DNA of 63,686 bases from Synergistes sp. (GCA_017537925.1 JAFYJW010000020.1:1-63686); one strand, 5' to 3'; positions 32,965 to 55,900 are shown, numbered from the stretch's first letter. Numbers and translations are program-made. The notes: generated by a model from the sequence alone, not told the origin.

Positions 32965-33476
32965 TAAGACAATTCAGCCGCGCAGAATCGGCGAGCTAAA
33001 TTCTGCCGTCAGTTTCTATAGTTATATCAGACCGATTCCTGATACAAAATACTATTTTAATCCTGTCCCGGGATATTCAGTTCCGGGATGTCTTTTTTCC
33101 CCCGTGTTTATGGCGATACTGCTGTCCGGTATGTGTAAGGATTGTTCTTGGCTTTATGTCGCATAGTTTTGTGCGAAACTGCATTCTTCCAAAGTAAAAC
33201 TCCTGATTGCAAATATCTGAATGAAACCCTACAAGCCTGTAATTTGAGCTGCGGAACAGGTAGGATAAACCATTTATAACTCTTTTATTAAAATTGCAAT
33301 TTAAATAATTACATAATTGTGCAATAATAAAATAAGCTGTCTAAACATGGAATTATCTGACTGTTTATGGTTGTTTGTCTGGATACGGAAACACAGTTCT
33401 TGTCACTGTAAATACTATTATTCATGCGATTATGGGTAATTTTACAGTCTGGTTCTAGAAATAGTATCTGGCAAGG
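32965..33476. other. AT-rich junction region at the start of the defence island
   Basis: No gene recognised. The composition falls sharply from about 33000. A hairpin terminator is at 33066-33098; the rest to 33476 is low-complexity AT-rich DNA with scattered stop codons in all frames. Confidence 0.5.
33066..33098 (+). terminator. Probable terminator after dprA
   Basis: TCCCGG (33066-33071) pairs with CCGGGA (33083-33088), with two further wobble pairs, an 11-base loop and a TCTTTTTT tail. Confidence 0.6.
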
Positions 33477-33710
33477 ATGGCAAGTGAGAAATTTGGAAAA
33501 CACCTTTTTAAAACAAAAATATATATCTATAGCGATCCATCATGCAAAACACGGAGTAAAGCTGACGTGCTTAGGTTTCATGGGGTTATAGAAAAAATAT
33601 GTTAGGTACTAGATACCACAGCAGATGATATCTTGGAATTTTGGATAAATGACAGAAGGCCAAGAATTAAATTTTTAAGAGAGGACTGCGGTTATGGAAG
33701 CCTATATTGA
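33477..33710 (+). pseudogene. Small ORF interrupted by an amber codon ahead of the defence operon
   Basis: A frame opening with ATG at 33477 runs 42 codons to a TAG (33603-33605) and then continues another 34 codons to a TGA at 33708-33710, overlapping the start of the next gene. The post-stop part includes DILEFWINDRRPRIKFL, which looks like real protein. No ribosome site of good spacing is present. Either the remains of a small upstream gene or chance; identity unknown. Confidence 0.35.
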
Positions 33711-34953
33711 AAAGCTTAATCAGCTGATTGCCATTAAGAAGAACAAAGGGAATAAGATAACGAAAAAAGAAAGAGAAGAATTTCTTTCCGCTTGGGGTGA
33801 ACTGATAGTAGCTGAAAATGGCTTCAGCGAAACGGTAGAGCGATACTTTTATGAGGGATTTGTTTTCGCGGGGGCAAAACCATTTGTCCAATGGGTCCTG
33901 TTATCTGAAGATAAATTTTCCGCTATTAATTCTTTGTTTAAAGGGCATTTTTTTGGAAAAGATACCCCTACATCTTTTAGAGTTCTGGTTAGTACATTGG
34001 CTCAGCTGATTATTTCGAATCCTACAGAGAAAAATCTGATTTGCCCAGTGATAGAGAATATACCCTCAGTTAGCAAGACAAAAGAAAACAAAACCCTTGT
34101 GGATGGACATAAGGTTATACTTAAATATTTTATCAGTGAGTTAAATAGTTCTTCTTTATTTCCTGTCCTATCTGAACTTAATATTAAACCTACTGTTATC
34201 AGGTCGTTTGTTGAAGTATTCGAAGTAATGATTAACAGGCTTGATTTGACAAGTCTATCAACAAAAGATGCTCAGAAGGTTGTTGCCATTAACAAATGGC
34301 TTCATCCCGATAATGAAGTTGAAAAGGCTGAGAAAGCGGAATTAATAGTCTCACAAGATTCCCAAAACGTTGTTAAAGAAAGATCTGAAGAGGTATTAAA
34401 TCAGGTAGAGCAGAATCCCCCACGGCACTTTTATAATCCATATGATCAGTTGATTAGTATGCTTAATGAAACAATATCTCTTTCCAGAGGTCTACGAGAC
34501 GAGTCAAAAAGCACAGAAAAGAAATGTACTGTCCTCCAAGAGGCAGTCAGCAATTTCCAGCGCGAAATAGAAGTCTTAAACAATCAGCTTAAAACTTCCA
34601 AACAAAGAGAAGCTTCCTTGGAAAAACAGCTGATTGATCGGGGTACCCAAATCTCTGGTCTGAGCTTACAGGTTAAAAGTTTAGAAGACGAAATACAAAA
34701 ACTGACCGAGGTGCTTGAGGCAAAAGACCAAGAGATAGATCAACGGACTCAGATGATGGATGCCTTAAGCAGGGATCGTACAAAGCAGGCTGATGAACAA
34801 ATGCATCGGTTGGCTTCTGATCTGAAAGTGGAGTATAGAGACTTTCATGATGCAGAAACACTTACTATGGACTGTGATTTAGGTGAAAACATGCGAGAAC
34901 AGTTGAAAAATGTGTTTTCAATTCTGAGCAAAGTAGGGATTAGTTTAGATTGA
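33694..34953 (+). CDS. Coiled-coil protein, first gene of the Hsp70/DrmAB operon
   Basis: Unrecognised protein of 419 residues. The N-terminal 220 residues look helical and globular (EFLSAWGELIVAENG); residues 270-375 form a long coiled coil with heptad leucines (LEKQLIDRGTQISGLSLQ); a short C-terminal domain (KVEYRDFHDAETLTMDCDL) ends NVFSILSKVGISLD. It is followed 12 bases later by the Hsp70-like gene. Coiled-coil partners of Hsp70-like proteins can act as co-chaperones or exchange factors; that role here is inference from context and architecture only. GAGAGG precedes the ATG. Confidence 0.75.
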   Translation: MEAYIEKLNQLIAIKKNKGNKITKKEREEFLSAWGELIVAENGFSETVERYFYEGFVFAGAKPFVQWVLLSEDKFSAINSLFKGHFFGKDTPTSFRVLVSTLAQLIISNPTEKNLICPVIENIPSVSKTKENKTLVDGHKVILKYFISELNSSSLFPVLSELNIKPTVIRSFVEVFEVMINRLDLTSLSTKDAQKVVAINKWLHPDNEVEKAEKAELIVSQDSQNVVKERSEEVLNQVEQNPPRHFYNPYDQLISMLNETISLSRGLRDESKSTEKKCTVLQEAVSNFQREIEVLNNQLKTSKQREASLEKQLIDRGTQISGLSLQVKSLEDEIQKLTEVLEAKDQEIDQRTQMMDALSRDRTKQADEQMHRLASDLKVEYRDFHDAETLTMDCDLGENMREQLKNVFSILSKVGISLD

Positions 34954-34965
34954 GGTGTGTAGTCA

Positions 34966-36426
34966 ATGCCTGCCAACTTAAATAATTACTATGGCATAGA
35001 TTTTGGAACAACCACTAGTGCAGTTGTTGGATATATGGTCATGGATCATAAGCCCGAGCAGTTTTTCTATGGTGATGATGAGGGGCGTCCGCTTCCTTCT
35101 GTTGTAGCGATTAATAAGACAACCGGAGAAATTACTACCGGAAGAGAAGCATGGAATAAGAAAATGGAGTTAAGTGAAACCTGTGAGTATTTCTCTTCGG
35201 TAAAAAGTGTTTTAGATCGTGATACCAGAACAACAATTGCCGGTCGGGAGTGGACACCGGTCGATATTGCAGCAGAACTGTTTAAAACATTAAAGACAAG
35301 TGTAAAAGAGAGAACTGGAAACGACTTGTCAATTGCAACTGTTGCTATTCCAATCGGGTTCAGTCCTGAGAAAAGGGATAAGTTGCGGAGTGCTGCAGCG
35401 AAGGCAGGTATCACTATAAGTTCATTTGTCAGTGAACCGACTGCTGCATTCTTTGCCAATTATGAAGAGTTGAGAAGTTCGCCAATTGTTGCGGTCTTTG
35501 ACTGGGGTGGCGGGACACTGGATGTCTCTATCCTGAAGAACGAAAACGGAAGGATATCAGAACTTGCAACTGCAGGTTCTAATATTGCCGGCGATTATAT
35601 CGATAACAAGATTGCTCAGAGAATTCATGCAAAAATAGCCAGAAAAAAAGGGATAGAACTTGCTTTCTCGGATATGCCTTCAAGTGCGCAGGATTTGATG
35701 CTTGTTCGTTCTGAACGTGCAAAAAGAGCTTTGGGCGATGATGATACAGCCACTATTTCTATAAACAACTATGGGCCATTTGGCGCATGTCGTGAATTAC
35801 TCGACTACGACTGGTTTGCAGATATTGTCGAACCAGAGGTCTCTATGGCTGTGGATTGCCTAAAAAAAGCTATTGAGCAGTCAGGGGTAGGCTTAGCAAA
35901 CATCGATAGAATAGTCATGGTTGGTGGTAGCAGCAATCTCCGGCCATTAATCGAACGAATGGATTCAATTTACGGAGAAAAACTGTTTTTCCCAGATGAA
36001 ACCATGTGGAATGTAGGTCAGGGGGCTGCCAGACTTGCTATGACCCCTGGCGACTATTACTCAAATCAATCAATTGGAATAATACTAAGCGATAATAGTT
36101 TCTTTGCTTTACTGTCACCAGATACTCCCTTGACGAACTGGAACATGGAGTGCCATTTTGGAATCGTTGATACAAATGAAGAAGCAAGATTTGTTTTTGG
36201 TGGCAGTTCGGATATTGAGGAATCACCTGCACGCTTTAAATCGCTTTCTGTCCCGGCATATCGGTTTTTACAGGAACAGATTATTCTCAGGGCTTTTGTA
36301 GATGAGAATATGGTATTTAAGGTTATTGCAGGGAGCACAATGAGACCTCGCGAGTACAGAAGGGTTTGGGACTATTCTCAGTTAAAATGCTACTATAAAC
36401 TGCCGGAAATGCGGGTTGAGTTATGA
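34966..36426 (+). CDS. Hsp70-family (DnaK-like) ATPase
   Basis: Protein of 486 residues with a complete ASKHA nucleotide-binding domain: YGIDFGTTTSAVVGY (phosphate 1), VAVFDWGGGTLDVSIL (phosphate 2), MVGGSSNLRPLIERM (adenosine motif). The substrate-binding region after about residue 375 is short and unlike DnaK, with no EEVD or lid helices. It lies between a coiled-coil protein and a helicase, overlapping the next start by four bases. Housekeeping DnaK is about 600 residues, so this is a specialised Hsp70. Confidence 0.9.
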   Translation: MPANLNNYYGIDFGTTTSAVVGYMVMDHKPEQFFYGDDEGRPLPSVVAINKTTGEITTGREAWNKKMELSETCEYFSSVKSVLDRDTRTTIAGREWTPVDIAAELFKTLKTSVKERTGNDLSIATVAIPIGFSPEKRDKLRSAAAKAGITISSFVSEPTAAFFANYEELRSSPIVAVFDWGGGTLDVSILKNENGRISELATAGSNIAGDYIDNKIAQRIHAKIARKKGIELAFSDMPSSAQDLMLVRSERAKRALGDDDTATISINNYGPFGACRELLDYDWFADIVEPEVSMAVDCLKKAIEQSGVGLANIDRIVMVGGSSNLRPLIERMDSIYGEKLFFPDETMWNVGQGAARLAMTPGDYYSNQSIGIILSDNSFFALLSPDTPLTNWNMECHFGIVDTNEEARFVFGGSSDIEESPARFKSLSVPAYRFLQEQIILRAFVDENMVFKVIAGSTMRPREYRRVWDYSQLKCYYKLPEMRVEL

Positions 36427-38897
36427 GTGAGACCATTTCCAGTACAGTTGCATTTAAAAGTAATCTGCAGCCGGTACGAGGGTCGTGTCGGGAGGATCAG
36501 CAGTTTCTCAAGTCCGTTCATGATATTTTTGCCTTGGAAAAGCTTAAAAATGCAGGATTAAACCTTACTCCTTTGCAAATACGGGAGTACGAAGCTGCTT
36601 CACTTCATTGTCATTTTGCAGATGAAGGCGATTATCCGTATGGAACTGTCTTTAGTGAAACTGGCGAACGGCAGGTTATATGCAAATGTACCAAAATTTC
36701 CTGCAGACTTTTTAAAGAATGCAGATCTGATTTTGATCCAAATGAACTCCATGTCAAAGATGAAAACAATGTATATCGTCCTAAAACTGCCGAGATAGAT
36801 GCCTCTCTGTCTGACAGGAGAGAAACCGAAGGTATTCCAAAACAAGGAGACATGGTCGCTGCGACCGAAGTACTCAAAGCAAAAACATACATCAGGGTTG
36901 ATCTTGAGCCAGACACTATTTTAGAAGGTCCGTCTAATGGTGAGCCGGAGGATAAACCTATTTCAATGCCAGAAGTGGCGGATAGAAATACTCCGTTTGA
37001 ACAACATGATGCAACATTTAGCTCTTTTGTGGATATAGAACAAGAAGAAACTATTCATCTTCCTGTTAAAGAGCGGACTATTGTTAATGCTGGCCCGGGA
37101 ACCGGAAAAACCTATACTCTCATAGAAAAACTCAAGTATATGTTGTCAGATTTGGAGACAGAGCCATCGAACATACTTGTTCTATGCTTTTCCAAGGTAG
37201 CTGTCGAAGTTATTAAAAGTCGGCTGGAGGACGCAGCAAACCACGAAGAACTGCCCCTGAACTGGCATCAGGTAGATGTCAGGACTTTTGATTCATTTGC
37301 TACTTACTTGCTTGCCTGGGTTCAGGAAAATATTCCAAGCCTCCTGCCAGAGCATTATACCCTTGAATGCCAGAACTATGATGAACGTATTCGCATGGCT
37401 GCCAGAATTTTGGTTACTCAGAAGGATCTGCTTGACATGTATGAACATATCATTGTTGATGAGGTCCAAGACTTGGTCGGTGTTAGAGCTGAGCTGGTTT
37501 TGTCCCTCCTTCACGGGCTTTCAGAGCGTTGTGGGTTTACTTTATTGGGGGATTCCTGTCAGTCACTCTACGATTACCTTGCTGTTAATGACAGTTCTGT
37601 GATGAGTTCGGATCAGTTCTACAAGAAACTGTTCCATGAGTACCGTGACGCTAACTTTTTCTCATTGAGCCATAATTATAGACAGGGTGATGAGTTAGGA
37701 GAACTGTCAGTTCCATACCGTAAAGCAATCCTCAGTGGAGATGTCGCTTCGAGAACAACAGAAGCAAAAAAACTGGATGCAGTCCTTGCTACTTCTGACA
37801 TCAATCTAAAGAATATAACTACAAAGGAAGTTATCACTTTCCTTAAAGAGGGCACATTAGGAATACTGAGTCGTACTAACGGGCAGGCATTACAGATCTC
37901 TTCATGGCTAAGGGCACAAGGTATCCGGCATACTTTTCAAAGGTCTGCTCAATCCCATGATTTGGCTGTTTGGATTGCAAGAACTCTTGTAAATGCTGAG
38001 ACAGATGTCATTGACAAATCTGAATTTGGTAATCTGTTTGCTAGGTATTATCCTGCTAAGGCCGAATTTGCCGGAAAATATTGGGATGCCCTGATAAGCA
38101 CGCAAAGATATCAGTCCAAGAACCATTACGAAATAGAAGATCTTCTTCGTGGCGTTTTTCAGAATGCGAGAAACCCTCTGCTGTTTGAAGAACCGGATAA
38201 TGTGCCAACTACTGTTACTGTTAGCAACATACACAGGGCTAAAGGCAGAGAATTTGATTCTGTCCTCATTCTTCAAGACGTGCTTGAAAACATGACTGAT
38301 GAAGAAAAGTGTGATTTGCTTGAGCATAAGGTGTGTTATGTCGCGCTTACTAGGCCAAAGAAAAAGGTCGAGAAGATTTTGCTGAAGCCTCAGTATATTT
38401 ATATTTCCAAAGATGAGGCGAGAAGATGTTTTAAAGCAGGAGGCTTTAGATCAAAGAAGTATTTGTCTCATTTTGAGGTAGGAGAAGGTTCTGACTTTGA
38501 CACAAGGTCATTTGCCAGATCGCCCGAGATTCAAGAGTATATACAATCCATGAAACCGGGCACTCGTCTAAAATTGTTAAAATGCCCGGAAGAGACTAAA
38601 TCCTATGTGTTATACAGCGTAGCCCCTGAAGATGACGATCGCACAATATTGTGTTATACAACCCCCACATTTGCTAAAAGCATGGAAAGGGCTATTCAGA
38701 GGATATTCTCAAATTCCCATTCCATAGCATACAAGTATTATCCCAATGTGTTTGGAGAAATATATATTGATGGATTAACCACTTGCATTTCGTCATCGGA
38801 TATAGGTGTTGATGGCGCAAAGATGTATGGTGGTATGTATATATGGTATGGCCTGTCTATTAGCGGCTTTGCACAGATGGAGAAGGATCGCTATTAA
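36423..38897 (+). CDS. UvrD/Rep-family superfamily 1 helicase with N-terminal cysteine cluster
   Basis: Protein of 824 residues. Helicase motifs: Walker A GPGTGKT at 224-230, DEVQD at 346-350, SHNYRQGDE, and VALTRPKK near residue 645. The 220-residue N-terminal region has C87, C89, C94 and C100 (CKCTKISCRLFKEC), a spacing suited to a zinc or iron-sulfur site. A C-terminal domain of about 175 residues follows the helicase core. Starts with ATGA overlap on the Hsp70 stop. Confidence 0.9.
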   Translation: MSETISSTVAFKSNLQPVRGSCREDQQFLKSVHDIFALEKLKNAGLNLTPLQIREYEAASLHCHFADEGDYPYGTVFSETGERQVICKCTKISCRLFKECRSDFDPNELHVKDENNVYRPKTAEIDASLSDRRETEGIPKQGDMVAATEVLKAKTYIRVDLEPDTILEGPSNGEPEDKPISMPEVADRNTPFEQHDATFSSFVDIEQEETIHLPVKERTIVNAGPGTGKTYTLIEKLKYMLSDLETEPSNILVLCFSKVAVEVIKSRLEDAANHEELPLNWHQVDVRTFDSFATYLLAWVQENIPSLLPEHYTLECQNYDERIRMAARILVTQKDLLDMYEHIIVDEVQDLVGVRAELVLSLLHGLSERCGFTLLGDSCQSLYDYLAVNDSSVMSSDQFYKKLFHEYRDANFFSLSHNYRQGDELGELSVPYRKAILSGDVASRTTEAKKLDAVLATSDINLKNITTKEVITFLKEGTLGILSRTNGQALQISSWLRAQGIRHTFQRSAQSHDLAVWIARTLVNAETDVIDKSEFGNLFARYYPAKAEFAGKYWDALISTQRYQSKNHYEIEDLLRGVFQNARNPLLFEEPDNVPTTVTVSNIHRAKGREFDSVLILQDVLENMTDEEKCDLLEHKVCYVALTRPKKKVEKILLKPQYIYISKDEARRCFKAGGFRSKKYLSHFEVGEGSDFDTRSFARSPEIQEYIQSMKPGTRLKLLKCPEETKSYVLYSVAPEDDDRTILCYTTPTFAKSMERAIQRIFSNSHSIAYKYYPNVFGEIYIDGLTTCISSSDIGVDGAKMYGGMYIWYGLSISGFAQMEKDRY

Positions 38898-38912
38898 TCT
38901 AGGAGGACTGTT

Positions 38913-41900
38913 ATGCCTGATTATTCCGAGTTTTATGATGCACGAAAAATAATCACAGACATTCTTCATGATGATCTCATTGGCCCTGTAAAAAAGAATG
39001 AGATTTTGCCTGAATTACCTACCCAATACTATATTATGGGCAAACTCTATCCTCAAAATGATGAGGGTGAGGTTGTTGATCTGGTAAGGAACCCTTTATT
39101 GGAGAATGCTGCTGAAACCTATGATGCATCAATATCCTTAAGCAACCAAAAGAACCCGTCTTCGTTTGGGATTACCTGTATTCTAAAGCCGGGAATTAAT
39201 TCCATACGGCTTTCTGGTTCTTACGCTTTCTACACTCTCATTCAGTATGAAGATGCCATAAAAAGAGGAATGGATCTTTCAAAATGGGAAGCATTGGAAA
39301 AAAAACCGAAAGACCTCTGGATTCGAAACGAATATGGGTTTGATAAGGTTGTCAGATTAAGTGCCGAAAAGGTCGAAAAACCAGTATCTCTGGATAATGG
39401 GATCCAATTACAGATTTACACTCATACAGTGTTAGATTCCGGTGAGCGAGTCAATACGGTTACTATGATTAACACTCAACAGGCAGGAAAAGACGCGGTG
39501 GAGAGAGCACAAAAATGTGCATTTCAGCCTAAGCTGATGATTTCCGGAGAGTATCCCTGCCCCATCTTTTCCAAATCCAATCGTCAGGAGCAATTTACCG
39601 AGGATGTAGAATTGCTTGAGCTCGATCTCCTTTATTCCGATGCAAACTGTTTCGGGCAAGGGCACGGCTGTTCTGTCGAATGGGATGTTGAAAATGAGGA
39701 TCCTCTTTGGGTTTCTACCGCATGGTTTCCATCGTACAACCTGCATCAGATGATGGCAGCTGATATTGAAGATAAAAAAGTGCTCTCCATGCACTATCTT
39801 TCTGATGGATTTCCGAAAGAAATATTGGTTTCCTTACGTCATTTTGCTAATTCTTATAATGAATGGATTAAAAAGATTGAATACGCATCAAAACTGCTTG
39901 GTGAAAAACAGCAAAACACCGCATTGAACAATGTTCAAAAATGCAAAGCGGCGTTTTCTAGAATCATGCATTCGATTGATTTGCTGGAAAAGAGCCTCTC
40001 CAGTAACGCTGATGCTATGAAAGCATTCCAGATAGCTAACGAGGCAATGCTGTTGCAGAGGAAGCAATCCTTATTAAAAGCCGGAAAAGAGTATGACCCG
40101 GAAAAAGTAACATGGTATCCTTTTCAACTTGCATTTATTCTTCATGAGCTGTCTTCCTTTATCGAACCCACGGGAAAAGAAAGAGACACAGTTGACCTTC
40201 TCTGGTTTCCTACCGGAGGCGGGAAAACAGAGGCGTATCTGGGCATTGCAGCATTTGTGATTTTCCTTCGGAGACTGCGCAACAGTTCAGACGACGGTGT
40301 AACTGTAATTATGCGATATACCCTCAGATTATTAACATTACAGCAGTTCGAACGAGCCAGCATGCTCATTTTTGCATGTGAACTGCTCCGGAAAGAATAC
40401 CATCTTGGAGGTACTGAAATATCTATTGGCCTTTGGGTCGGCGGCAAACTGACTCCTAATCTCCTAGAGGAAGCCCGTGCAAGCATTAACAAACGACAAC
40501 TTGGAGCAGTCGTCTCGCCAGAAGTAGCAAATCCATGTCAGATACAGGTATGTCCGTGGTGCGGTAAACCACTGACTGCAAAGAATTACTCCATTCGTAT
40601 TGCAGAAAAAAGGATGTTAATTCATTGCAATAATGAGGAGTGTGCTTTCCATGGTACAGACAATGGCCTGCCGTTACATATTATTGACGATGCAATATAT
40701 GAGCACCTTCCGACTTTTATAGTTGCAACTGTCGACAAATTTGCACAGATACCCCTCAGCGATAAGCCTGCTGCATTATTTGGTATCTCGAGCAATAAAA
40801 AGCCACCGGAACTTATTATCCAAGATGAGCTTCATCTTATCTCAGGTCCGTTAGGTACTATGACCGGACTGTATGAAGCTGCAATCACAAAGCTGTGTGA
40901 AAAGGATGGAATTGGGGCAAAAGTAATTGCTTCAACGGCAACTATAAGGAATGCTAGAAACCAGATAATGGCATTGTACGGGAGGGACTATTCCCAGTTC
41001 CCGCCTCAGGGAATTTCCGCAAAGGATTCCTATTTTGCTGTGGAGTCCACACCGACAGACCGCCCTGCAAGGCAGTATTTTGGCGTGATGGGGATTGGTG
41101 TTACGGCAACGACAACCCTGATACGTGTAAATGCAGCGCTTCTCTTTGCTTCAAGGTATCTTGCAGGACTTGGATATGAGGACGGTATAATAGATAATTT
41201 CTGGACTATTACAGGTTATTTCAACAGTTTAAGAGAATTGGGCGGAGCAAGCACACAGATTTTGGATGACGTTCAGAGCCGATTCAGTTACCTTGCAAAA
41301 ACCAAGTTTGGCCATCTGGTACCACAGGTTGATCTTTCTGTCAGTTATGACCATCTGGTAGAATTGACCAGCCGTATGGACAATTCTGAGATTACAAAAA
41401 TAATCCAAGACCGCCTGAAACGGAGTTACCGTGCAGGACAGCATAAAGATGTATATGATTATGTCCTGGCTTCAAATATGATATCTGTAGGGGTTGACGT
41501 AGGACGTCTGGGTGTGATGGTCGTAGCTGGGCAGCCCAAAACAAATGCTGAATATATTCAGGCAACCAGCCGGGTAGGCCGGGATAATCCCGGACTGGTT
41601 GTTGCCGTATATAATCCGACAAGATCCCGCGATCGTTCGCATTATGAACAGTTTTTAAAATATCATTCGGCTTTGTATCGTTATGTTGAAGCTACCAGCC
41701 TGACACCATTTGCGGACAGGGCCCGGGACAGAGGCCTGCATGCCCTTTATGTGTCATTATGCAGGTATCTTGTCCCCGGCTTGCTGAGCAATAACGCTGC
41801 TGTTTTATATGATTCTTCTAATCCGGAAGTTGAGGAAATTCGTAACCTGATTCTTGATTATATTGAGAAAGTTGATCCGGGAGAAAAATACGCAGCAATG

Positions 41901-42080
41901 GAAGAACTGCAGGATATCGAGGACGCATGGGATATTGCTGCGACAGGGACGCTTGTTTACAGGAGTTTTAAAAATGAGAAAAAACTTCTGAAGGGTGATA
42001 CCGAGAACGACAGGTTCAGAACCATGAACAGCATGAGAAGCGTGGATGCGCAGGCAGGCATCTATCTTCTGGGGAGGTAA
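38913..42080 (+). CDS. DrmA-like superfamily 2 helicase (DISARM-related)
   Basis: Large helicase of 1055 residues. Walker A FPTGGGKTEA is near residue 431, a DELHL Walker B at about 637 and TSRVGRD (motif VI) near 880; a zinc ribbon (CPWCGKPL and CNNEEC) lies between, around 546-575. The combination of PTGGGKTEAYLG and QDELHLISGPLGT matches DrmA of DISARM, a restriction-type phage defence. AGGAGG lies six bases ahead of ATG. The N-terminal 400 residues are unassigned. Confidence 0.88.
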   Translation: MPDYSEFYDARKIITDILHDDLIGPVKKNEILPELPTQYYIMGKLYPQNDEGEVVDLVRNPLLENAAETYDASISLSNQKNPSSFGITCILKPGINSIRLSGSYAFYTLIQYEDAIKRGMDLSKWEALEKKPKDLWIRNEYGFDKVVRLSAEKVEKPVSLDNGIQLQIYTHTVLDSGERVNTVTMINTQQAGKDAVERAQKCAFQPKLMISGEYPCPIFSKSNRQEQFTEDVELLELDLLYSDANCFGQGHGCSVEWDVENEDPLWVSTAWFPSYNLHQMMAADIEDKKVLSMHYLSDGFPKEILVSLRHFANSYNEWIKKIEYASKLLGEKQQNTALNNVQKCKAAFSRIMHSIDLLEKSLSSNADAMKAFQIANEAMLLQRKQSLLKAGKEYDPEKVTWYPFQLAFILHELSSFIEPTGKERDTVDLLWFPTGGGKTEAYLGIAAFVIFLRRLRNSSDDGVTVIMRYTLRLLTLQQFERASMLIFACELLRKEYHLGGTEISIGLWVGGKLTPNLLEEARASINKRQLGAVVSPEVANPCQIQVCPWCGKPLTAKNYSIRIAEKRMLIHCNNEECAFHGTDNGLPLHIIDDAIYEHLPTFIVATVDKFAQIPLSDKPAALFGISSNKKPPELIIQDELHLISGPLGTMTGLYEAAITKLCEKDGIGAKVIASTATIRNARNQIMALYGRDYSQFPPQGISAKDSYFAVESTPTDRPARQYFGVMGIGVTATTTLIRVNAALLFASRYLAGLGYEDGIIDNFWTITGYFNSLRELGGASTQILDDVQSRFSYLAKTKFGHLVPQVDLSVSYDHLVELTSRMDNSEITKIIQDRLKRSYRAGQHKDVYDYVLASNMISVGVDVGRLGVMVVAGQPKTNAEYIQATSRVGRDNPGLVVAVYNPTRSRDRSHYEQFLKYHSALYRYVEATSLTPFADRARDRGLHALYVSLCRYLVPGLLSNNAAVLYDSSNPEVEEIRNLILDYIEKVDPGEKYAAMEELQDIEDAWDIAATGTLVYRSFKNEKKLLKGDTENDRFRTMNSMRSVDAQAGIYLLGR

Positions 42081-42082
42081 AT

Positions 42083-43915
42083 ATGGCTCTTCATTTTGGG
42101 AAAAAGAGTGAAAACGAAAAGACGAAGGTAGTAGGGGAACTGAGAAGAACCCAACTGATAACCACATTTGGCAGTGGTGCGATAGTGGATATGCCGGATT
42201 ACTCTGTTGTTATTGCGGCAACTAATTACTGGAAATCCAATAGTCCTGTATTACATGAGCCGAATCTTGAAAAACTGCTGAAGGTATCCCATTTTAAACA
42301 GCCCTACGTAACTGAAGACACAGGAGATAAATCTTCACCTGATATTCCTGCTTTCAGGTTCCCCATCATACATTTCTGCCCTGATTGTGGGAGACTGATG
42401 CCGTACTGGGGATTTGGCGATGATACCGGAAAGATTTGCTTACATTGTAAGAAAAACATAGTACCATCAAGGTTTATAGCTACCTGCATCAATGGGCATA
42501 TGGAAGACTTCCCGTATAAATGGTGGGTTCATGGCGGAGATTATTCAAAGTGTCCTGCTGCAGACAAAGATGATAAACTGACAATTACCTTTTCAGATGA
42601 AACGGGCGGTCTTGACAGTATTGTAATTACCTGTACAGCCTGCGGTAAAAAAAGAAGTATGGCTGGATGCCTTGGTAAAGATGCGTTACGTGGTTACACT
42701 TGTAAAGGGAGCAGGCCCTGGATCGGATTGAAAGCAGACAAAAGAGATCCCATTCCGTGCACAGCACCTATGCGGGGGTTGCAACGCGGAGCATCCAATG
42801 TTTATTTTTCCCAGACGGCAAGCGCTTTGACAATACCTCCGTGGAGCAGCAGATTGCATCAGGAGATAGAACTGTACTGGGACAGGCTTTCATCTTTTCT
42901 TGATGGAAACCCAACAGAAGAGAATCTGCGTGGGGTGGTCGAAGTTCAGTTTTATAATCTGCTCACACTGGAACTTTATTCCGTAGACGATATCATCAGG
43001 GAAATCAAAAAAAGAAAGAATATAGAAGGTGTATCTGAAGAGTATACCAAGCAGAACCTGTATGAAGATGAGTATCAGGTGTTCTGTCTGGGCGATTATG
43101 AACAATCGGACGACTATCAGTTTAGAATAGAAAGCGTAGATATACCGGAGTTTCTGAAAGACTACATTGACGATGTTGTTATGGTAAAACGGCTGAGGGA
43201 GGTTCTAGCGTTACGGGGATTCCGCAGAATATCCCCTGAAAAACCCTCGGCAGACGATGAAAGGTTTAATGGATATCATTATGATGGAGACTGTGTTCCT
43301 CTCTCTGAAGCTCCATTAAACTGGTACCCCGGGATTGAAATGCTTGGGGAAGGAGTTTTTATCCGTCTCAACGAGGACGCCCTTTCGGCATGGGAAGACA
43401 GGAATACCGGATACTATGAGGCTATGAAAAGTCAGTTAGAAGCAAGTACTATAGAGTGCGGGAACTTTTCTCCCAGATACGTACTGTTGCATACCTTGTC
43501 GCATCTGCTGATCAGGCAGCTCTCGGTTGAATGCGGTTATTCAGGCGCATCTATCAAAGAACGAATTTACAGCACATTCCCTGAATCCACACACCATATG
43601 GCAGGGATCCTGCTGTATACATCATCTTCGGACTCGGACGGAAGCCTTGGCGGTCTTGCCAGAAATGCCCTTCCGGAACAGTTTGAACTGATTTTCAGGA
43701 ATATGCTGCAGGAGGCGTCGTGGTGTTCTTCGGATCCGATTTGCATTGAGTCCAAAGCGCAAGGATACGATTCCCTGAACTACGCTGCCTGTCATGCATG
43801 TACCCTGTTGCCTGAGACAAGCTGTGTAATGCGCAATTGTCTGTTAGATCGCGGTGCAGTTGTAGGCTCTCTTTTAAACCGTAGAAGCGGCTTTTTTGGT
43901 GATTTGTTTGATTGA
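42083..43915 (+). CDS. DrmB-like DUF1998 protein (DISARM-related)
   Basis: Protein of 610 residues. The N-terminal RRTQLITTFGSGAIVDMPDY is the signature of DrmB; a four-cysteine zinc site (CPDCGRL, CLHCKK) follows near residues 100-124; the C-terminal DUF1998 part holds LLHTLSHLLIRQLSVECGY and CHACTLLPETSC. In DISARM DrmB pairs with DrmA. It starts two bases after drmA-like stops, indicating a coupled pair. Confidence 0.9.
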   Translation: MALHFGKKSENEKTKVVGELRRTQLITTFGSGAIVDMPDYSVVIAATNYWKSNSPVLHEPNLEKLLKVSHFKQPYVTEDTGDKSSPDIPAFRFPIIHFCPDCGRLMPYWGFGDDTGKICLHCKKNIVPSRFIATCINGHMEDFPYKWWVHGGDYSKCPAADKDDKLTITFSDETGGLDSIVITCTACGKKRSMAGCLGKDALRGYTCKGSRPWIGLKADKRDPIPCTAPMRGLQRGASNVYFSQTASALTIPPWSSRLHQEIELYWDRLSSFLDGNPTEENLRGVVEVQFYNLLTLELYSVDDIIREIKKRKNIEGVSEEYTKQNLYEDEYQVFCLGDYEQSDDYQFRIESVDIPEFLKDYIDDVVMVKRLREVLALRGFRRISPEKPSADDERFNGYHYDGDCVPLSEAPLNWYPGIEMLGEGVFIRLNEDALSAWEDRNTGYYEAMKSQLEASTIECGNFSPRYVLLHTLSHLLIRQLSVECGYSGASIKERIYSTFPESTHHMAGILLYTSSSDSDGSLGGLARNALPEQFELIFRNMLQEASWCSSDPICIESKAQGYDSLNYAACHACTLLPETSCVMRNCLLDRGAVVGSLLNRRSGFFGDLFD

Positions 43916-43926
43916 GAGATTTTGTT

Positions 43927-45633
43927 ATGATTGAAATGATTCCAGACTTGTTATCTCCTGAAATCAAGAGTCAGGCTGAAAAAAGCCTTTTTAACGAATT
44001 CAGAGATTGCAAAACAGAAGAGCATTATATAATTCTCCATTCTTTAGGGCTATCCGATCATGTCAACAACATATTCGGTGAAATTGACTTTGTGGTTATA
44101 TGCCATCAGGGGGTTCTCTGTGTTGAAGTTAAAGGCGGCGATGTGAGCTGTAACAAAGGGGTCTGGAAGTTTACCAATCGATATGGCAAGGTAAACGAGA
44201 AGACAGAAGGTCCTTTCCAGCAGGTCCAGGGAAATATGCAATCATTGAGAGGTCATCTTATGAAGCGGTTGGGGAAATGGGACCCTCTGGTTTCCTGCCA
44301 GTATGCTTCATGCGTGATAATGCCAGATTGTGAATTCAAATATGAAGGTATAGAAATAATACCTGAAATCCTGTTTGACAAAAGATATTACCGAAATCTG
44401 CCGGAAACGATTGAATTCAGTTTTAGTTATTGGCGAAATAAACTGTTAAGTCAGCACGGTTTTGAGGGAAATTATCTATCAGAAAACGAGATGAAACGTC
44501 TTGCGGATATTCTTCGCGGTGATTTTCATTTCGTCCCATCAATGAAAGATACGATTGATTTAACTGTAAAAGCCCTGTGCGCATTAACGGATGAACAATA
44601 TGACATTTTAGAGTCTCTGGATGATAACGACCGTGTTCTTGTTTCAGGTGTTGCCGGTGCAGGGAAAACATTACTGGCAATGGAACAGGCGAGGCGGGTT
44701 TACTGGTCTGGCCGTGATGTTCTGTTCGTTTGCTTTAACAGAAGTATATCGTCCTATGTTCAATACCAGTTTGAAAAAGACGGCGTTGAGATTAAGGCCT
44801 GTACTTTCCATTCCCTACTTGGAGAAGCACCAGGAGATCAATTTCCACCAGATTATTTTGGAAGAGTTCTCCCAGAACAGTTCTTAAAGCAAAATAATGT
44901 TAAAGAATACGATTATCTGATTATTGATGAGGGACAGGATTTATTCAAAGAAGCATACCTTCCTTGCTTGGGACGTCTTGTAAAAGGTGGCCTAAATGAT
45001 GGTAACTGGCTGATTTTCTATGACCAGAATCAAAATCTCTTCAACAACGATAATCAGTTTGATTCATGTATTGGGTACCTAAAGAGATGTGGTGCTGCTT
45101 CATTTAAACTTACTGTTAACTGTCGCAATACAAGACAAATTGTGGATGCCAATACTTTAACAACAGGCATTACTAATATTGGCCGTCCAAAAGTTAATGG
45201 GTTGAGCGTTCAGTACCTCCCATATAACAGCAAGGCGGACGAGCGGAAAATACTTGAAAATGTACTTCAGGAACTAAAAGATGATGGGGTGAACGGGGGA
45301 GATTTGATTATACTGTCTCGTTATTCACTTACGAATCCTGCAAACTGCCTCTGTGGAAACCCTAAACTAACGTCGATTGGCAAAATTAAGTCAACCGGGC
45401 AAATGTGGAGAGCTGGAAAGACAGAGGTGCGCTTTTCAACTGTTTCAGCATTTAAAGGCCTTGAAGCTAAGGTCGTTATCCTGACTGATGTTGACAGTTT
45501 TTCTGATCAAGCTGTTCGTTTGCTGAATTATGTTGCTATATCCCGTGCGAGTTCTTTGCTGTATGTCCTGTACGATTCATCCAAAGAACAAGAGCGTCAG
45601 GATATGCTGATAAGCGGATATTTTAAGATCTAA
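43927..45633 (+). CDS. NERD-domain nuclease fused to a UvrD-like helicase
   Basis: Protein of 568 residues. The N-terminal NERD domain (PD-(D/E)XK nuclease-related) shows GEIDFVVI and VLCVEVKGG near residue 50; the helicase half has Walker A VAGAGKTLLA near 240 and DEGQD at about 333, and AISRAS towards the C-terminus. The ATG at 43927 is chosen; a TTG at 43912 overlaps the drmB-like stop. It takes the position where DISARM operons have the PLD nuclease DrmC. Last gene of the six-gene operon. Confidence 0.85.
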   Translation: MIEMIPDLLSPEIKSQAEKSLFNEFRDCKTEEHYIILHSLGLSDHVNNIFGEIDFVVICHQGVLCVEVKGGDVSCNKGVWKFTNRYGKVNEKTEGPFQQVQGNMQSLRGHLMKRLGKWDPLVSCQYASCVIMPDCEFKYEGIEIIPEILFDKRYYRNLPETIEFSFSYWRNKLLSQHGFEGNYLSENEMKRLADILRGDFHFVPSMKDTIDLTVKALCALTDEQYDILESLDDNDRVLVSGVAGAGKTLLAMEQARRVYWSGRDVLFVCFNRSISSYVQYQFEKDGVEIKACTFHSLLGEAPGDQFPPDYFGRVLPEQFLKQNNVKEYDYLIIDEGQDLFKEAYLPCLGRLVKGGLNDGNWLIFYDQNQNLFNNDNQFDSCIGYLKRCGAASFKLTVNCRNTRQIVDANTLTTGITNIGRPKVNGLSVQYLPYNSKADERKILENVLQELKDDGVNGGDLIILSRYSLTNPANCLCGNPKLTSIGKIKSTGQMWRAGKTEVRFSTVSAFKGLEAKVVILTDVDSFSDQAVRLLNYVAISRASSLLYVLYDSSKEQERQDMLISGYFKI

Positions 45634-45741: not shown

Positions 45742-46863
45742 ATGTTAAAACAGATTCATATCAGAGTGGATGACAGCCTGTTTCAGGCACTTTCAAAGTA
45801 TACAGATAAGGCTGGTTTGTCTGTAAATGACTTCATCGTGAGTTCCATCATGCAAGCTCTAAGTAATCAGACTCAAAATTCAGCCGATACAACCGCGCCC
45901 TTTACATTTATAGATTTATTTGCCGGCATTGGCGGAATGCGAATTGCCTTTGAGTCGAATGGTGGTATTTGCGTTTATTCGAATGAGTGGAATAAATACT
46001 GTCAACAGACGTATTTTGCCAACTTCGGAGAGCAGCCTGACGGTGATATAACGAAGGTAGATGCAAAGATAATTCCTGGTCATGATATTTTGGTAGCCGG
46101 TTTCCCCTGCCAGCCGTTCAGCATTGCAGGTGTATCAAAAAAGCAAAGCCTTGGAAGAGCAACGGGATTTGAAGATAAGACCCAAGGCACACTTTTTTTT
46201 GATGTATGCAGAGTTATCAAAGCAAAACGGCCAAAGGCATTTATGCTTGAAAATGTTAAAAATCTGAAAAGCCATGACAAGGGCAATACATTTAAAATCA
46301 TCATGGAATCTTTGGAAGAGCTTAATTATGAAGTTTTTTATGCTGTTATTGATGGACAGAACTATGTCCCACAACATAGAGAACGTATTCTGATAGTTGG
46401 CTTTGACAGGAAGCGGTATGGGAATAATATAAACTTTTCTTTTGATATAAGTCCTGTTGAACCACGGCCGGTAATGCGAGACATTCTGGAGGCTGATGTT
46501 GATGAGAGATATACTCTGTCGGATAAACTTTGGACCTACCTTCAGGGTTATGCAAAAAAACATAAAGTGGCCGGAAACGGGTTTGGTTTCGGAATAGCTA
46601 ATCCTGACGGAGTGGCGAGAACTCTAAGTGCCAGATATTATAAAGATGGCTCCGAAATACTTGTTGCACAGGAAGGTCGCAACCCAAGAAGACTGACACC
46701 AAGGGAATGTGCAAGACTACAAGGTTTTCCGGATTCTTTTAAAATTGTTGTTTCTGATACACAAGCTTATAAACAGTTTGGCAATTCTGTTGTTGTACCG
46801 CTTATGAAGGATGTTGCCAGACTTATCGCCGCTAAACTAAAAAGGTTGGATGAGCAACAATGA
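45742..46863 (+). CDS. DNA (cytosine-5-)-methyltransferase with N-terminal ribbon-helix-helix domain
   Basis: Protein of 373 residues. Residues 1-45 form a probable ribbon-helix-helix DNA-binding fold ([18 protein letters not shown], then [15 protein letters not shown]). The methyltransferase motifs follow: DLFAGIGGM (I, ~54), [11 protein letters not shown] with catalytic Cys (IV, ~120), ENVKNL (VI), QHRERI (VIII) and QFGNSV (X). Together with the EcoRII-like nuclease the predicted target is CCWGG. AAGAAGG precedes ATG. It may auto-repress from the inverted repeat upstream. Confidence 0.93.
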
Positions 46864-48032
46864 GCAATGAAATAGTTTCATTGGCAATTGAAAAAACGCT
46901 GGCAGGGCAACAGGCCTTTTGTAAGTTGCTTTCTCCAAATGACAGTGGTGAGACTGGCGGACATCAGTCAGGCTTCTTAATTTCAAAAACAGCAAAAGAT
47001 ATGCTGTTTTCTGAAGCCGACCTATTGAATCACATTGCAAAGAAAGACATACGGATCAAGTGGCAGGAAGATTTTTACACTGATGCCTGTTTCACATGGT
47101 ATGAAAGTAAGAACGAGCTTAGGATAACAAGGTTTACACGAGGATTCCCTTTTAAAGGGCCTGATTATACTGGGGCGCTGTTTATTCTCATAAAAAATAC
47201 TGACGAGGATTATGCTGGTTTTATTTTCAACACGGAAGATGAAATCATCGAGTTCTTTAATGCTTTTGGTTTGACTCCGGCTGAGACAAACCGACCGTTA
47301 TCTTTTAACCGTACGAAAGCAAGCCTCATAGAGCAACAAAGCATAAATGAGTTCATTGAGGGGCTTACAGTTGAGTTCCCTTCTTCTGAAGTAATGTCTT
47401 CTGCTGCAAGAATGATATGTAATGCTGCTTTTCTGAGCAAATCAGTAACTGTGACAAACCCAGACAAAGCTCTTTTAGCTTGGACTGATGAAGAGTACAA
47501 ACTATTTAAGGCTTTGGAGCACGCTCGGTATAGTGATTCTCTAGGAAAAGGTTTTACTTCTGTTGATGAATTTGTTTCTATGGCTAACCAGGTCTTGAAC
47601 AGGAGGAAAAGCCGTGCTGGAAAAAGCTTGGAACATCACTTAGCAGCAGTATTTGACGAGAATGGTATTTCATACACAGCTCAGGCAATTACTGAGGGCA
47701 ACAAGCGTCCTGATTTCATATTTCCTTCAGAAGTTGCATACCACGACCTTAGTTTCCCTGTCCATAAACTTATCTCTCTTGCAGCTAAAACCACATGTAA
47801 AGACCGTTGGCGTCAGATACTAAATGAGGCCGATCGTCTCAGAGGTGTGAAAAAGTATCTCTGTACCCTTCAACAGGGAGTATCAGCGATGCAGTTAGAT
47901 GAGATGGAGGCTGAGGGCGTAATTCTTGTTGTGCCAAGGCCCTATATTCTTACTTATCCCAGAGAAAAACAGGGTAATATATGGACGCTATCTAAATTTG
48001 TAAGCTATGTAAAGGAAGTTGAACATGGCTGA
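46860..48032 (+). CDS. EcoRII-family type IIE restriction endonuclease
   Basis: Protein of 390 residues with the two EcoRII domains. The N-terminal effector-binding half has [16 protein letters not shown], closely matching EcoRII; the C-terminal catalytic half has [27 protein letters not shown] and [14 protein letters not shown], the PD-(D/E)XK active site. EcoRII cuts before CCWGG and needs a second site as allosteric effector. It starts with ATGA overlap on the methyltransferase stop. Confidence 0.94.
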
Positions 48033-48477
48033 TATTAAGTCACCAGAGGCGCGAAGCAAAAACATGGCAGCAATAAAGAACAGAAACACCGAGCCAGAAG
48101 TGTTTTTCAGGAGGAAGTTGTTTTCTATCGGGTTGCGTTATCGGATTAACTCCAAAAAAGTAATAGGGCATCCGGATCTTTGGCTGAAAAAATACAATAC
48201 AGCTGTTTTTATACATGGTTGCTTTTGGCATCGACATAATGGATGTAAGTATTCAACAACACCAGAAACGCGGAAAGATTTCTGGCTTCAAAAATTTGGT
48301 AACAACATTAGAAGAGACAAGTATGTTAAAGAAGAGCTTAAACGCAGGGGGATAAAAACCCTTATTGTATGGGAATGTACAGTGAAAAAAATGAAAGAGA
48401 CACCCTCTGTTGAAAACAGTGTTCTTAATAAAATATACGGGTTCATAAACTCCGAAGACTTATACTTGGAGTTGTAA
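48025..48477 (+). CDS. vsr: Very short patch repair endonuclease Vsr
   Basis: Protein of 150 residues that nicks 5' of the T in T:G mismatches left by deamination of 5-methylcytosine, here presumably at CTWGG/CCWGG. GHPDLWLKKYNTAVFIHGCF and CFWHRHNGC hold the catalytic Asp, His and zinc ligands. AAAGGAAG (48011-48018) supports ATG 48025, and the gene overlaps the endonuclease by eight bases. Companion of C5 methyltransferases. Confidence 0.94.
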   Translation: MADIKSPEARSKNMAAIKNRNTEPEVFFRRKLFSIGLRYRINSKKVIGHPDLWLKKYNTAVFIHGCFWHRHNGCKYSTTPETRKDFWLQKFGNNIRRDKYVKEELKRRGIKTLIVWECTVKKMKETPSVENSVLNKIYGFINSEDLYLEL

Positions 48478-52063: not shown

Positions 52064-52939
52064 ATGAGCAATACTTCGATACGTTTTTTCAACGACCGTG
52101 ATGTTCGTGTCGTTTGGGACGATGAGAACTCCAAATGGTGGTTCTCTGTCCCTGACGTCATAGGTGTGATGAACAACGAAACCGACCACGCCAAAAACCG
52201 CAATTATTGGAAGTATTTAAAAGGCAGACTGAGAAGAGAAAACAGCGAGTTGGTTAGTGTCACTAACCAACTGAAACTGACTGCTGCAGATGGAAAACAG
52301 TACAATACCGATGTGCTTGACAGCGCCGGTATCATACTCCTTGCCCAAAATATGCCCAACTCAAAATCAGCCTGTTTTATCGAATGGTTCGCAGCTCCCG
52401 GCGAAAGCACAGACGGCAGAAGCCGGGCAAAAGCCTATGCTCTCTTTGAGAGCGGCGCAGCGGAATCAATAGAGATCGGCACGGTGAAAGGTCTGCGGCA
52501 GATCCACGCATGGCTTTTCAGCGGGTCATACGATTTCGCCGGGCAGATACGCACAAAGAATATCGCCAAACGCGGCTTTCAGTTTGCTGCGGCGCGGTAT
52601 CTCCCTCAGACGCTCAGACAGATAGAATCGATGCCGGACGGTACTTTTGACGAGATCGTGACCAAATATGCCGAGATGAACGTCGCTCACCCGTTTATGG
52701 AGGGCAACGGCCGCAGCGCCCGCATATGGCTTGATATGCTTCTGAAAAAGCGGCTCGGCAAATGCGTGGACTGGAGCAGAATAAGCAAAGGCGACTATCT
52801 TAACGCGATGAAAAAAAGCGTTGCCGACGACTCTGAGATCCGCGCGCTGCTGAAAGGCGCGCTCACCGATAAGACAGGCGACCGCGAGACTTTTATGAAA
52901 GGCATAGACCGTTCGTATCAGTACGAAGAGGAAGAGTAA
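52064..52939 (+). CDS. Bro-N-like domain fused to a Fic domain
   Basis: Protein of 291 residues. Residues 1-110 resemble the Bro-N/phage antirepressor domain (RVVWDDENSKWWFSVPDV, then QLKLTAADGKQYNTDVLD); the C-terminal half is Fic (HPFMEGNGRSAR, the AMP-transfer motif HxFx[DE]GNGRxxR). The last residues SYQYEEEE resemble the C-terminal inhibitory helix of class III Fic proteins, with the usual glycine after glutamate missing. AGGAGATGG precedes ATG. The fusion suggests a phage- or plasmid-derived toxin with a DNA-binding arm. Confidence 0.85.
   Translation: MSNTSIRFFNDRDVRVVWDDENSKWWFSVPDVIGVMNNETDHAKNRNYWKYLKGRLRRENSELVSVTNQLKLTAADGKQYNTDVLDSAGIILLAQNMPNSKSACFIEWFAAPGESTDGRSRAKAYALFESGAAESIEIGTVKGLRQIHAWLFSGSYDFAGQIRTKNIAKRGFQFAAARYLPQTLRQIESMPDGTFDEIVTKYAEMNVAHPFMEGNGRSARIWLDMLLKKRLGKCVDWSRISKGDYLNAMKKSVADDSEIRALLKGALTDKTGDRETFMKGIDRSYQYEEEE
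52248..52272 (+). repeat. 25-bp perfect palindrome inside the Bro-N-Fic gene
   Basis: Two 12-base arms, AGTTGGTTAGTG (52248-52259) and CACTAACCAACT (52261-52272), around a single T at 52260. It codes part of LVSVTNQL. A degenerate version recurs at 54064-54088. Confidence 0.6.
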
Positions 52940-53006
52940 CGCGCCGGTGCGGAATAATCCTGCCGCCTGAAGGTTATAATAGCAGGCAGGCAACGGGGGG
53001 ATAGGG

Positions 53007-53984
53007 ATGAGTGAGAGATACCAGCCGCCGTTTCACATGACGGAAGAGATCACAAATTTGATCGTGGAGATCGGGGAATATGTAGGCTTTATCACGACAT
53101 ATGAAGCCATGCGGCAGAATCCGGTACTGCGAAGAGCAAGTCGGATCAAATCTGTTTATTCATCGCTTGCGATCGAGCAGAATTCCTTGTCTCTGAACCA
53201 GGTAACAGATGTTATCGAAGGGAAAAGAGTGCTCGGATCTCCGCAGGATATAAAAGAGGTCAAAAATGCCTATGAGGCTTATGAACGTTTGTCATCACTT
53301 GAACCGTATAATGTAAAGAACCTGCTTTTGGCACACAGGATTCTTATGGACGGACTCGTGAAGGAAGCAGGAGTCTTCAGGAGCGGAAACGTCGGCGTAT
53401 ATGCCGGGAATCAATTGATTCACGTCGGCACGCCGGCAAAATATGTGCCTCAGCTTATGGAACAGCTTATGGCGTGGCTGAAGGAGTCAAAATACCATCC
53501 TTTGGTCAAAAGCTGCATTTTTCACTATGAATTCGAGTTCATCCATCCGTTTTCAGACGGAAACGGACGGATCGGCAGGCTTTGGCAGTCTTTGATCCTT
53601 CAAAAATGGAAAGATATCTTTGCATGGCTTCCGGTCGAGACATTGGTACATGAGCATCAGGAAGAATACTACGATGTTCTCAGACGGTCGGATAAAACAG
53701 GAGATTCAACGGAATTTGCAGCGTTTATGCTGCGAATGATTCGTGACGCGCTTAAAGAAGCGGCCGGGAACCAAAACGCAAATGTCGTAACAAATGTCGT
53801 AACAAATGAAGAAAGAATCCTTGAACTGCTGAGACAGGACGGGAAACTAACGGCAAAAGAGCTGGCTTCCTCATTGGGCCTGACACAACGTCAGGTGCAG
53901 AGGATCCTCGCAGATCTGAAAGCAGAAAAAAAGATCGTTCGCCACGGTGCGAGCAAAAACGGATATTGGGAAGTCGCAGAATAA
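53007..53984 (+). CDS. Fic family protein with N-terminal inhibitory motif and C-terminal HTH
   Basis: Protein of 325 residues: N-terminal helix with SSLAIEQN (class II inhibitory motif), Fic motif HPFSDGNGRIGRLW, and a C-terminal winged-helix (LTAKELASSLGLTQRQVQRI). A linker repeats NVVTNVVTN. Such proteins AMPylate targets and are commonly self-controlled; the HTH may let it regulate its own gene. It follows the Bro-N-Fic gene after 67 bases. Confidence 0.9.
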   Translation: MSERYQPPFHMTEEITNLIVEIGEYVGFITTYEAMRQNPVLRRASRIKSVYSSLAIEQNSLSLNQVTDVIEGKRVLGSPQDIKEVKNAYEAYERLSSLEPYNVKNLLLAHRILMDGLVKEAGVFRSGNVGVYAGNQLIHVGTPAKYVPQLMEQLMAWLKESKYHPLVKSCIFHYEFEFIHPFSDGNGRIGRLWQSLILQKWKDIFAWLPVETLVHEHQEEYYDVLRRSDKTGDSTEFAAFMLRMIRDALKEAAGNQNANVVTNVVTNEERILELLRQDGKLTAKELASSLGLTQRQVQRILADLKAEKKIVRHGASKNGYWEVAE

Positions 53985-55673: not shown

Positions 55674-55688
55674 TTTATTCGGTCATAA

Positions 55689-55733
55689 TGGTGGGCGATA
55701 GAAGAATTGAACTTCTGACCTCTTCCGTGTCAA
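55689..55733 (-). other. 45-nt 3' fragment of tRNA-Val(GAC), att site
   Basis: The minus strand reads TTGACAC (anticodon loop, GAC) through the T arm AGAAG-TTCAATT-CTTCT to the acceptor end ATCGCCCACCA. The D arm and 5' half are missing. Such a duplication arises when an element inserts at the 3' end of a tRNA gene; the element side is to the right, where the integrase lies. Confidence 0.8.
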
Positions 55734-55900
55734 GATAATTTTTATACTTTTGGGGCAATATATAAACGATTGTTTTTAGTGTGTTTTATGTTGCTGTTAC
55801 TGTAAAAACCCCTCTTTTAATATTTATTTTATCTGCTATAATACAGCCTGAATAATATAGCTCTTGAGTGACCGGTGAGTGATGAGGGGTGATTTTTACT

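Follow-up and report, generated by a model that had tools for sequence, protein, structure and literature searches.

Hsp70 and coiled-coil genes precede a DISARM-like UvrD-DrmA-DrmB core in a rare, mobile operon of anaerobic bacteria

We analysed a stretch of 63,686 nucleotides from Synergistes sp. (GCA_017537925.1, JAFYJW010000020.1:1-63686), here referred to as the window, and identified an operon in which the genes for a coiled-coil protein (cc) and an Hsp70 precede those for a UvrD-family helicase, for DrmA and DrmB of the DISARM type, and for a NERD nuclease fused to a helicase. The cluster is rare and mobile, is spread over distantly related anaerobic bacteria, and probably represents a defence system without a name, with the chaperone pair setting the time at which the helicases attack. 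It is still unsettled what prompts a DISARM-type system to attack; with one executor behind an exchanged front module (Hsp70/coiled-coil, ZorABC or a Tiamat-like ATPase), the question of sensing could be tested by swaps. Hsp70 would also gain a second antiviral context besides the CoCoNuTs, here with an ATP site that appears to work.

Conservation and co-inheritance of the operon

The six open reading frames (ORFs) lie on the + strand at 33694-45633 (cc, Hsp70, UvrD, DrmA, DrmB and NERD-helicase) and are all intact, with intergenic gaps of 12, -4, 15, 2 and -4 bp, gene by gene. This agrees with the first-pass annotation of the window, which had described six co-directional and nearly touching genes there. 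The NERD-helicase starts either at the TTG at 43912 or at the ATG at 43927. No phospholipase D (PLD) or DrmC gene was found within the operon, the PLD matches of the genome sitting on other contigs, and the claimed DrmA-DrmB core without DrmC was thus confirmed, as both proteins pass the NCBIfam cut-offs.

A DrmA alignment was scanned against about 85,000 genomes and the best 80 loci were kept; together with the window, one further locus from the genome search and annotated plasmid loci, 89 DrmA loci were annotated by profile. The cc family was found only in Hsp70-bearing DrmA loci: ten of the 89 carry it, and the identical ten carry the operon Hsp70, always as cc-Hsp70-UvrD-DrmA. Besides the window, these are from Lachnospiraceae (L034), Eubacterium coprostanoligenes ATCC 51222 (L036), Gastranaerophilales (L037), a Bacillota metagenome-assembled genome (MAG; L039), Anaerosalibacter bizertensis Med78-601-WT-4W-RMD-3 (L040), Peptococcaceae (L041), Oscillospiraceae (L043), Ruminococcaceae (L044) and Synergistaceae (L055), L036 and L040 being the named strains. 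An eleventh carrier, the IMG/VR contig L126, has all six genes. The order cc-Hsp70-UvrD-DrmA therefore holds in 11/11 loci (the window, nine genome contigs and one IMG/VR contig), with gaps of -77 to 96 bp, across Bacillota, Synergistota and Gastranaerophilales.

DrmB follows DrmA in 10 of the 11 loci, the L055 contig stopping after DrmA, and NERD follows DrmB in 6 of the 9 loci that are readable at that place. The invariant core is thus five genes (cc, Hsp70, UvrD, DrmA and DrmB), with NERD optional. The expectation that all six genes would be kept together elsewhere was accordingly right for the five-gene core and not for NERD; similarly, the NERD-helicase does stand at the DrmC position, where it had been proposed to replace the PLD gene, but it is an optional occupant.

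In a quick tree of DrmA (91 rows), the Hsp70 operons fall within a single 14-row clade (SH-aLRT 100). Hsp70 is present in 10 of the 12 untruncated members of this clade against 0 of 77 elsewhere, with three state changes on the tree (Fisher p 1.3e-11, relatedness being ignored). The eleven operon Hsp70s group in a single clade (100/99), separately from the DnaK of their hosts, with a branching order similar to that of the DrmA tree. Pairwise distances were correlated between Hsp70 and DrmA (r=0.93), DrmA and DrmB (0.93), and DrmA and cc (0.78). With 11/11 loci, a shared tree topology and r=0.93, the cc-Hsp70 pair is truly part of the operon, which upholds the earlier view of an Hsp70 and a coiled-coil partner added to the core. 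That the operon Hsp70 is a stray copy of the host DnaK was ruled out: the latter is encoded on contig C24, and the two fall apart in the trees.

Strong DrmA matches were found in 4 of the 183 genomes of the window's class. Among the 391 genomes of the class of L034, the cc profile clearly matched only L034's own genome, and the system is therefore rare.

The coiled-coil protein and the Hsp70

The AlphaFold2 (AF2) model of cc (pLDDT 83.1) consists of a helical N-domain, a 140-residue helix and a short C-terminal helix. It is the fastest-diverging protein of the operon, with 34% identity to its L126 counterpart against 73% for Hsp70 and 68% for DrmA. Its last 49 residues show 55-63% identity to the nearest two relatives, against 18-32% for the N-domain, for which a fold search returned only weak helical-repeat resemblances, many of them to designed proteins. 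The genes immediately upstream of cc in L039 and L040 (L039:1828-4878 and L040:2874-4796) have in common an N-terminal region of 220 residues with 36% identity; this region had no Pfam or PADLOC match, and the C-terminal parts of the two proteins differ.

The Hsp70 model (AF2, pLDDT 87.7) has a nucleotide-binding domain and the beta part of the substrate-binding domain (SBD-beta) and lacks the alpha-helical lid; it matches DnaK in structure (VIA Z about 41). Residues K80, E157, D179 and T184 of the ATP site, which we take to correspond to K70, E171, D194 and T199 of DnaK, are invariant in the alignment, and the ATP site is apparently intact. When plasmids were searched with this Hsp70, the best matches had about 29% identity, and the one inspected, from Paenarthrobacter, was not in a DISARM context. 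In L037 (1830-4175), the operon Hsp70 is extended at its N terminus by a tetratricopeptide-like part of about 290 residues.

The helicases and the nuclease

DrmA scored 971 bits against the NCBIfam DISARM_DrmAS cut-off of 950, and DrmB 498 bits against the DrmB_fam cut-off of 240; their PADLOC scores were 778 and 274 bits, respectively. The solved DrmAB structure was the sole PDB sequence match of both profiles (DrmA E 1.6e-255, DrmB E 5.9e-126). The GGGKT and DELH motifs of DrmA are invariant across the Hsp70 clade, the active site of UvrD is also invariant, and the PD-(D/E)xK residues of NERD (D54, E67, K69 and Q99) are invariant in 12 relatives. The active sites of the helicases and the nuclease all look functional. 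UvrD has an N-terminal Cys cluster (C63 and CKCTKISCRLFKEC at 87-100), common to the Hsp70 operons and absent from L038, L045 and L030. The loss of a DrmA trigger loop as the cause of an Hsp70 gate was considered and dropped, since the loop-equivalent has 34 residues and is similarly short in many other short DrmAs.

In L080 (8265-15295), and also in L087, L090, L092, L095 and L107, a NERD-helicase gene stands immediately upstream of DrmA-DrmB, with neither UvrD nor DrmC, which is a further arrangement of the DISARM-like kind.

Exchange of the upstream module in related operons

UvrD lies immediately upstream of DrmA in 56 of the 89 loci, and what precedes it differs. In an Acetatifactor MAG (L038:3613-14869), ZorA-ZorB-ZorC occupy the slot of cc and Hsp70 and are followed by UvrD-DrmA-DrmB, which makes the locus a Zorya/DISARM-like hybrid; the ZorC-like protein, with an EH signature, stops 2 bp upstream of UvrD. 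In this UvrD, the N-terminal Cys cluster seen in the Hsp70-bearing sisters is missing. In an actinobacterial locus (L045:3064-15078) and one from Dehalococcoidia (L042:2051-16671), a Tiamat-like HATPase is upstream of UvrD-DrmA-DrmB, as part of a fusion protein of about 1670-1835 aa that includes a ResIII/DEAD helicase. Alphaproteobacterial loci have UvrD-DrmA-DrmB-NERD with Hsp70 absent. Inside the Hsp70 clade itself, L026 is without cc and Hsp70 and has an N-truncated UvrD beside a gene that resembles the one upstream of cc in L043, which has the look of either a deletion or a faulty assembly.

Since relatives swap or lack the pair, UvrD-DrmAB can be read as a common executor and the Hsp70 pair as one of several modules that precede it, which suggests that an exchangeable trigger feeds the executor.

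Further arrangements were noted among the relatives. Many other actinobacterial loci have UvrD-DrmA-DrmB with equal spacing. On a Tsukamurella plasmid (L029:7744-9138), a RelA/SpoT-domain gene is immediately upstream of UvrD-DrmA-DrmB. In a genome from the same taxonomic order as the window, L027 (863-18034) has HATPase, Z1-domain and DUF4420 genes, then a DrmE-like gene and UvrD-DrmA-DrmB-NERD. Of the 56 genome and plasmid loci in which DrmA immediately follows UvrD, 0 have DrmC. A strict exclusion between UvrD and DrmC was ruled out by a viral contig with UvrD-DrmA-DrmB-DrmC (L130), and only a tendency is left.

The adjacent restriction-modification cassette and the genomic island

A restriction-modification (R-M) and Vsr cassette with a guanine-cytosine (GC) content of 38-41% begins 108 bp downstream of NERD (Table 1). 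The first-pass annotation had overlooked this EcoRII cassette, within which a C5-methylase adjoins the operon, though the methylase is inconstant among relatives. It is visible in 4 of the 11 loci (the window, L126, L036 and L039), at differing positions, and the methylase as a further conserved core gene was thus ruled out. The C5-methylase is accompanied by its own restriction enzyme, EcoRII in the window and HpaII in L036, and L126 has a lone C5-methylase with Vsr right after NERD.

From about 33.1 to 48.5 kb the GC content is 38-45%, against 55-58% in dprA on the left and in the activase and dehydratase genes beyond. Terminator-like sites occur at 33064 and 48566, although such sites are only slightly commoner than in shuffled sequence. 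Further to the right, a copy of the 3' end of a tRNA-Val precedes an integrase gene, and the window thus has an integrative element at its right end. In the congeneric genome G166, tRNA-Val(GAC) is found immediately after the activase gene, and G167 has another small cassette at the equivalent place. Because of the tRNA-Val fragment, the integrase and the comparison with these two genomes, the operon is placed in an integration hotspot, and it was probably acquired together with the R-M-Vsr cassette by horizontal transfer. Two adjoining Fic-domain genes lie between the operon and the integrase (52064-53984), the first with a Bro-N domain.

Table 1. Features of the operon, the adjacent cassette and the integrative element (window coordinates)
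Feature	Position	Strand	Details
Coiled-coil (cc) protein	33694..34953	+	419 aa; cc profile; AF2 model
Hsp70	34966..36426	+	486 aa; PF00012 E 3.7e-36
UvrD-family superfamily 1 (SF1) helicase	36423..38897	+	824 aa; PF00580 E 3.3e-22, PF13361
DrmA, YprA-family superfamily 2 (SF2) helicase of DISARM, short form	38913..42080	+	1055 aa; NCBIfam DISARM_DrmAS
DrmB, DUF1998/MZB protein	42083..43915	+	610 aa; MZB/DUF1998 E 3.1e-9; NCBIfam DrmB_fam
NERD nuclease fused to UvrD-type helicase	43912..45633	+	PF08378 E 4.4e-12
C5-methyltransferase (dcm-type)	45742-46863	+	PF00145
EcoRII endonuclease	46860-48032	+	PF09019
Vsr	48019-48477	+	PF03852
tRNA-Val 3'-end copy	55688-55734		47 bp; exact match to tRNA-Val of congeneric G166
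Integrase	55889, region to 57094		PF00589

A possible mechanism and its alternatives

What the sequences show is the gene set and its order, their conservation and joint inheritance, active-site residues that are intact, and the exchange of modules among relatives; the defence function, the trigger role of cc-Hsp70, its docking sites and the direction of regulation are our inference. We see about an even chance that this is an antiviral system of the DISARM-like kind, in which an executor is paired with an exchangeable trigger, here cc-Hsp70. UvrD and DrmA-DrmB would be loaded at the single-stranded ends of foreign DNA, move along it and separate its strands, and the NERD nuclease, where present, would cut the unwound DNA. 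The fast-evolving N-domain of cc would meet a phage product, while its conserved C-terminal 49 residues would attach to a partner that is invariant (probably either Hsp70 or the Cys-rich N-domain of UvrD). Hsp70, with its lidless substrate-binding domain, would then be a latch, worked by ATP, that either retains UvrD-DrmAB or sets it free. Published DISARM work, from which the loading step is taken, showed that a 5' single-stranded overhang on DNA activates DrmAB, which requires ATP hydrolysis, and that DrmC is dispensable in experiments and often missing (PMC9142583).

The trigger role is proposed because the pair sits in a slot shared with exchangeable modules, including ZorABC, whose ZorAB is the proposed sensor of Zorya (PMC11890865), and because its variable component shows the fastest divergence, much as DruH, the likely sensor of Druantia III, changes faster than the helicase DruE (PMC13192584). 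In a bolder form, Hsp70 and its diversifying partner would form an immune switch, driven by ATP, that recognises phage proteins and permits the helicases to act, and that is swapped elsewhere for the Zorya motor or the Tiamat-like ATPase; this we offer tentatively and lean somewhat against. Perhaps the action is abortive, as the first-pass annotation had supposed, and a sensing or remodelling role may be part of it. If this bolder reading is true, the relatives would follow a plug-in logic, with differing sensors on one common UvrD-DrmAB executor.

Several points weigh against a trigger role of the pair. The ZorABC exchange is known from one MAG contig (L038), and the Tiamat-like module, being fused to its own helicase, may do more than trigger. 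Fast divergence of coiled-coil regions occurs without a sensor role. No gene for a J-domain protein is apparent in the operon, and a relationship of cc to GrpE was not found among the Pfam, PDB sequence and fold matches listed, which coiled-coil matches crowd.

The main alternative, which we consider unlikely, is that cc-Hsp70 is an assembly or maintenance chaperone of a UvrD-DrmAB-NERD complex, with DrmAB alone recognising foreign DNA, as in DISARM. The DnaK-like ATP-site residues and the SBD-beta of the Hsp70 would fit a working chaperone, and its partners are large multi-domain helicases; however, close UvrD-DrmA-DrmB relatives manage without any Hsp70, L038 has ZorABC in its slot, and cc evolves far faster than its supposed clients. 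It is less probable again that the operon is a methylation-guided DISARM variant, at which the adjacent C5-methylase marks self, UvrD-DrmAB-NERD restricts unmarked DNA and Hsp70 is accessory. The cassette is on the operon's strand and in the same low-GC block, and L126 has its lone C5-methylase and Vsr right after NERD, but the methylase occurs at differing places in the minority of loci given above, and those of the window and L036, paired with EcoRII or HpaII, form a complete system alone.

The Hsp70 could also be an RNA- or ribosome-binding module, comparable to CnuD of the CoCoNuTs, by which phage RNA or translation is sensed or attacked, since the type III CoCoNuT Hsp70 with coiled-coil partners is predicted to bind RNA (PMC11090510). 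This we find quite improbable, as the ATP motifs of CnuD are degenerate (PMC11090510), whereas the window Hsp70 keeps its residues, and as the operon is without HEPN, CSD, YTH or McrBC and has DNA helicases and a PD-(D/E)xK nuclease as effectors. That the six genes are unrelated neighbours collected in a defence island is hardly credible: the region is mosaic and beside a tRNA-Val integration site, but the constant order of touching genes in 11 loci from three lineages and the matching Hsp70 and DrmA trees and distances rule out chance for the five-gene core. For the R-M cassette, such a reading could still hold.

Comparison with known systems

No named system with the exact gene set was found in Pfam, PADLOC, NCBIfam or the literature searched, in line with the earlier claim. 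In full-text searches, no paper was found to join DrmA, DrmB and Hsp70, although the supplement of PMC12458937, which was outside the search, may list such an association; the available part of that paper was the only literature found to join DrmA, DrmB and UvrD, or DISARM, DrmA and NERD. According to the same part, the DISARM-like clade has many uncharacterized classes, and ARMADA, BRIGADE and TALON have a YprA-family core, ARMADA type II having a GajB/UvrD-like helicase and TALON a NERD nuclease (PMC12458937). In contrast, the window DrmA matches the DISARM DrmA and DrmB is a separate gene; PglX, BrxHII, TPR-CSD, TBP and 7-deazaguanine genes are absent from the operon, with no TPR-CSD or TBP gene of the TALON kind in it, and the descriptions of these systems in the available text mention no Hsp70 (PMC12458937).

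The type III CoCoNuTs are likewise prokaryotic defence operons that combine an Hsp70-like protein (CnuD) with a coiled-coil one (PMC11090510). The window differs in that it is without HEPN, keeps the Hsp70 ATP-site residues and has helicases at its core; neither an McrB-type GTPase nor an McrC homologue was detected among the nine genes of the operon and cassette (Pfam, PADLOC and NCBIfam). Zorya, with ZorAB and ZorC/D or ZorE (PMC11890865), is without DrmA-DrmB and the window is without Zor genes, the likeness being limited to the sister operon L038. The ATPase domain of Tiamat (TmtA in PADLOC) resembles that of the actinobacterial and Dehalococcoidia relatives and is absent from the window. 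RTasNERD-Hel was the top PADLOC match of the NERD-helicase (171 bits), but the window has no reverse transcriptase; in L040 (15014-17125), a UG19-type defence reverse transcriptase is right after DrmB, at the NERD position.

The closest likeness in the core is to DISARM, with DrmA and DrmB as separate adjoining genes in the same order and above curated thresholds, and with a C5-methylase nearby in the window. That methylase scores 481 bits to DrmMII and higher as a type II methylase, and it comes with EcoRII. In PADLOC, type I must have DrmA-B-C-D-MI and type II DrmA-B-C-E-MII (PMC9252829), and comparison with these reference sets gave matches to DrmA and DrmB and the full set of neither type. 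Among the nine genes there was no PADLOC match to DrmC, which also had no profile match in the window or in any Hsp70 operon, no DrmD (SNF2-like helicase) or DrmMI (adenine methylase) by Pfam, PADLOC and NCBIfam, and no match to DrmE. Unlike in DISARM, UvrD, Hsp70 and the coiled-coil protein are constant parts, a NERD-helicase is found where DrmC would be, and the methylase is inconstant and belongs to the EcoRII cassette. Since DrmC, DrmD and DrmE are lacking, the operon is outside the published DISARM types I and II; by its genes, it is DISARM-like in its core and a member of neither defined class.

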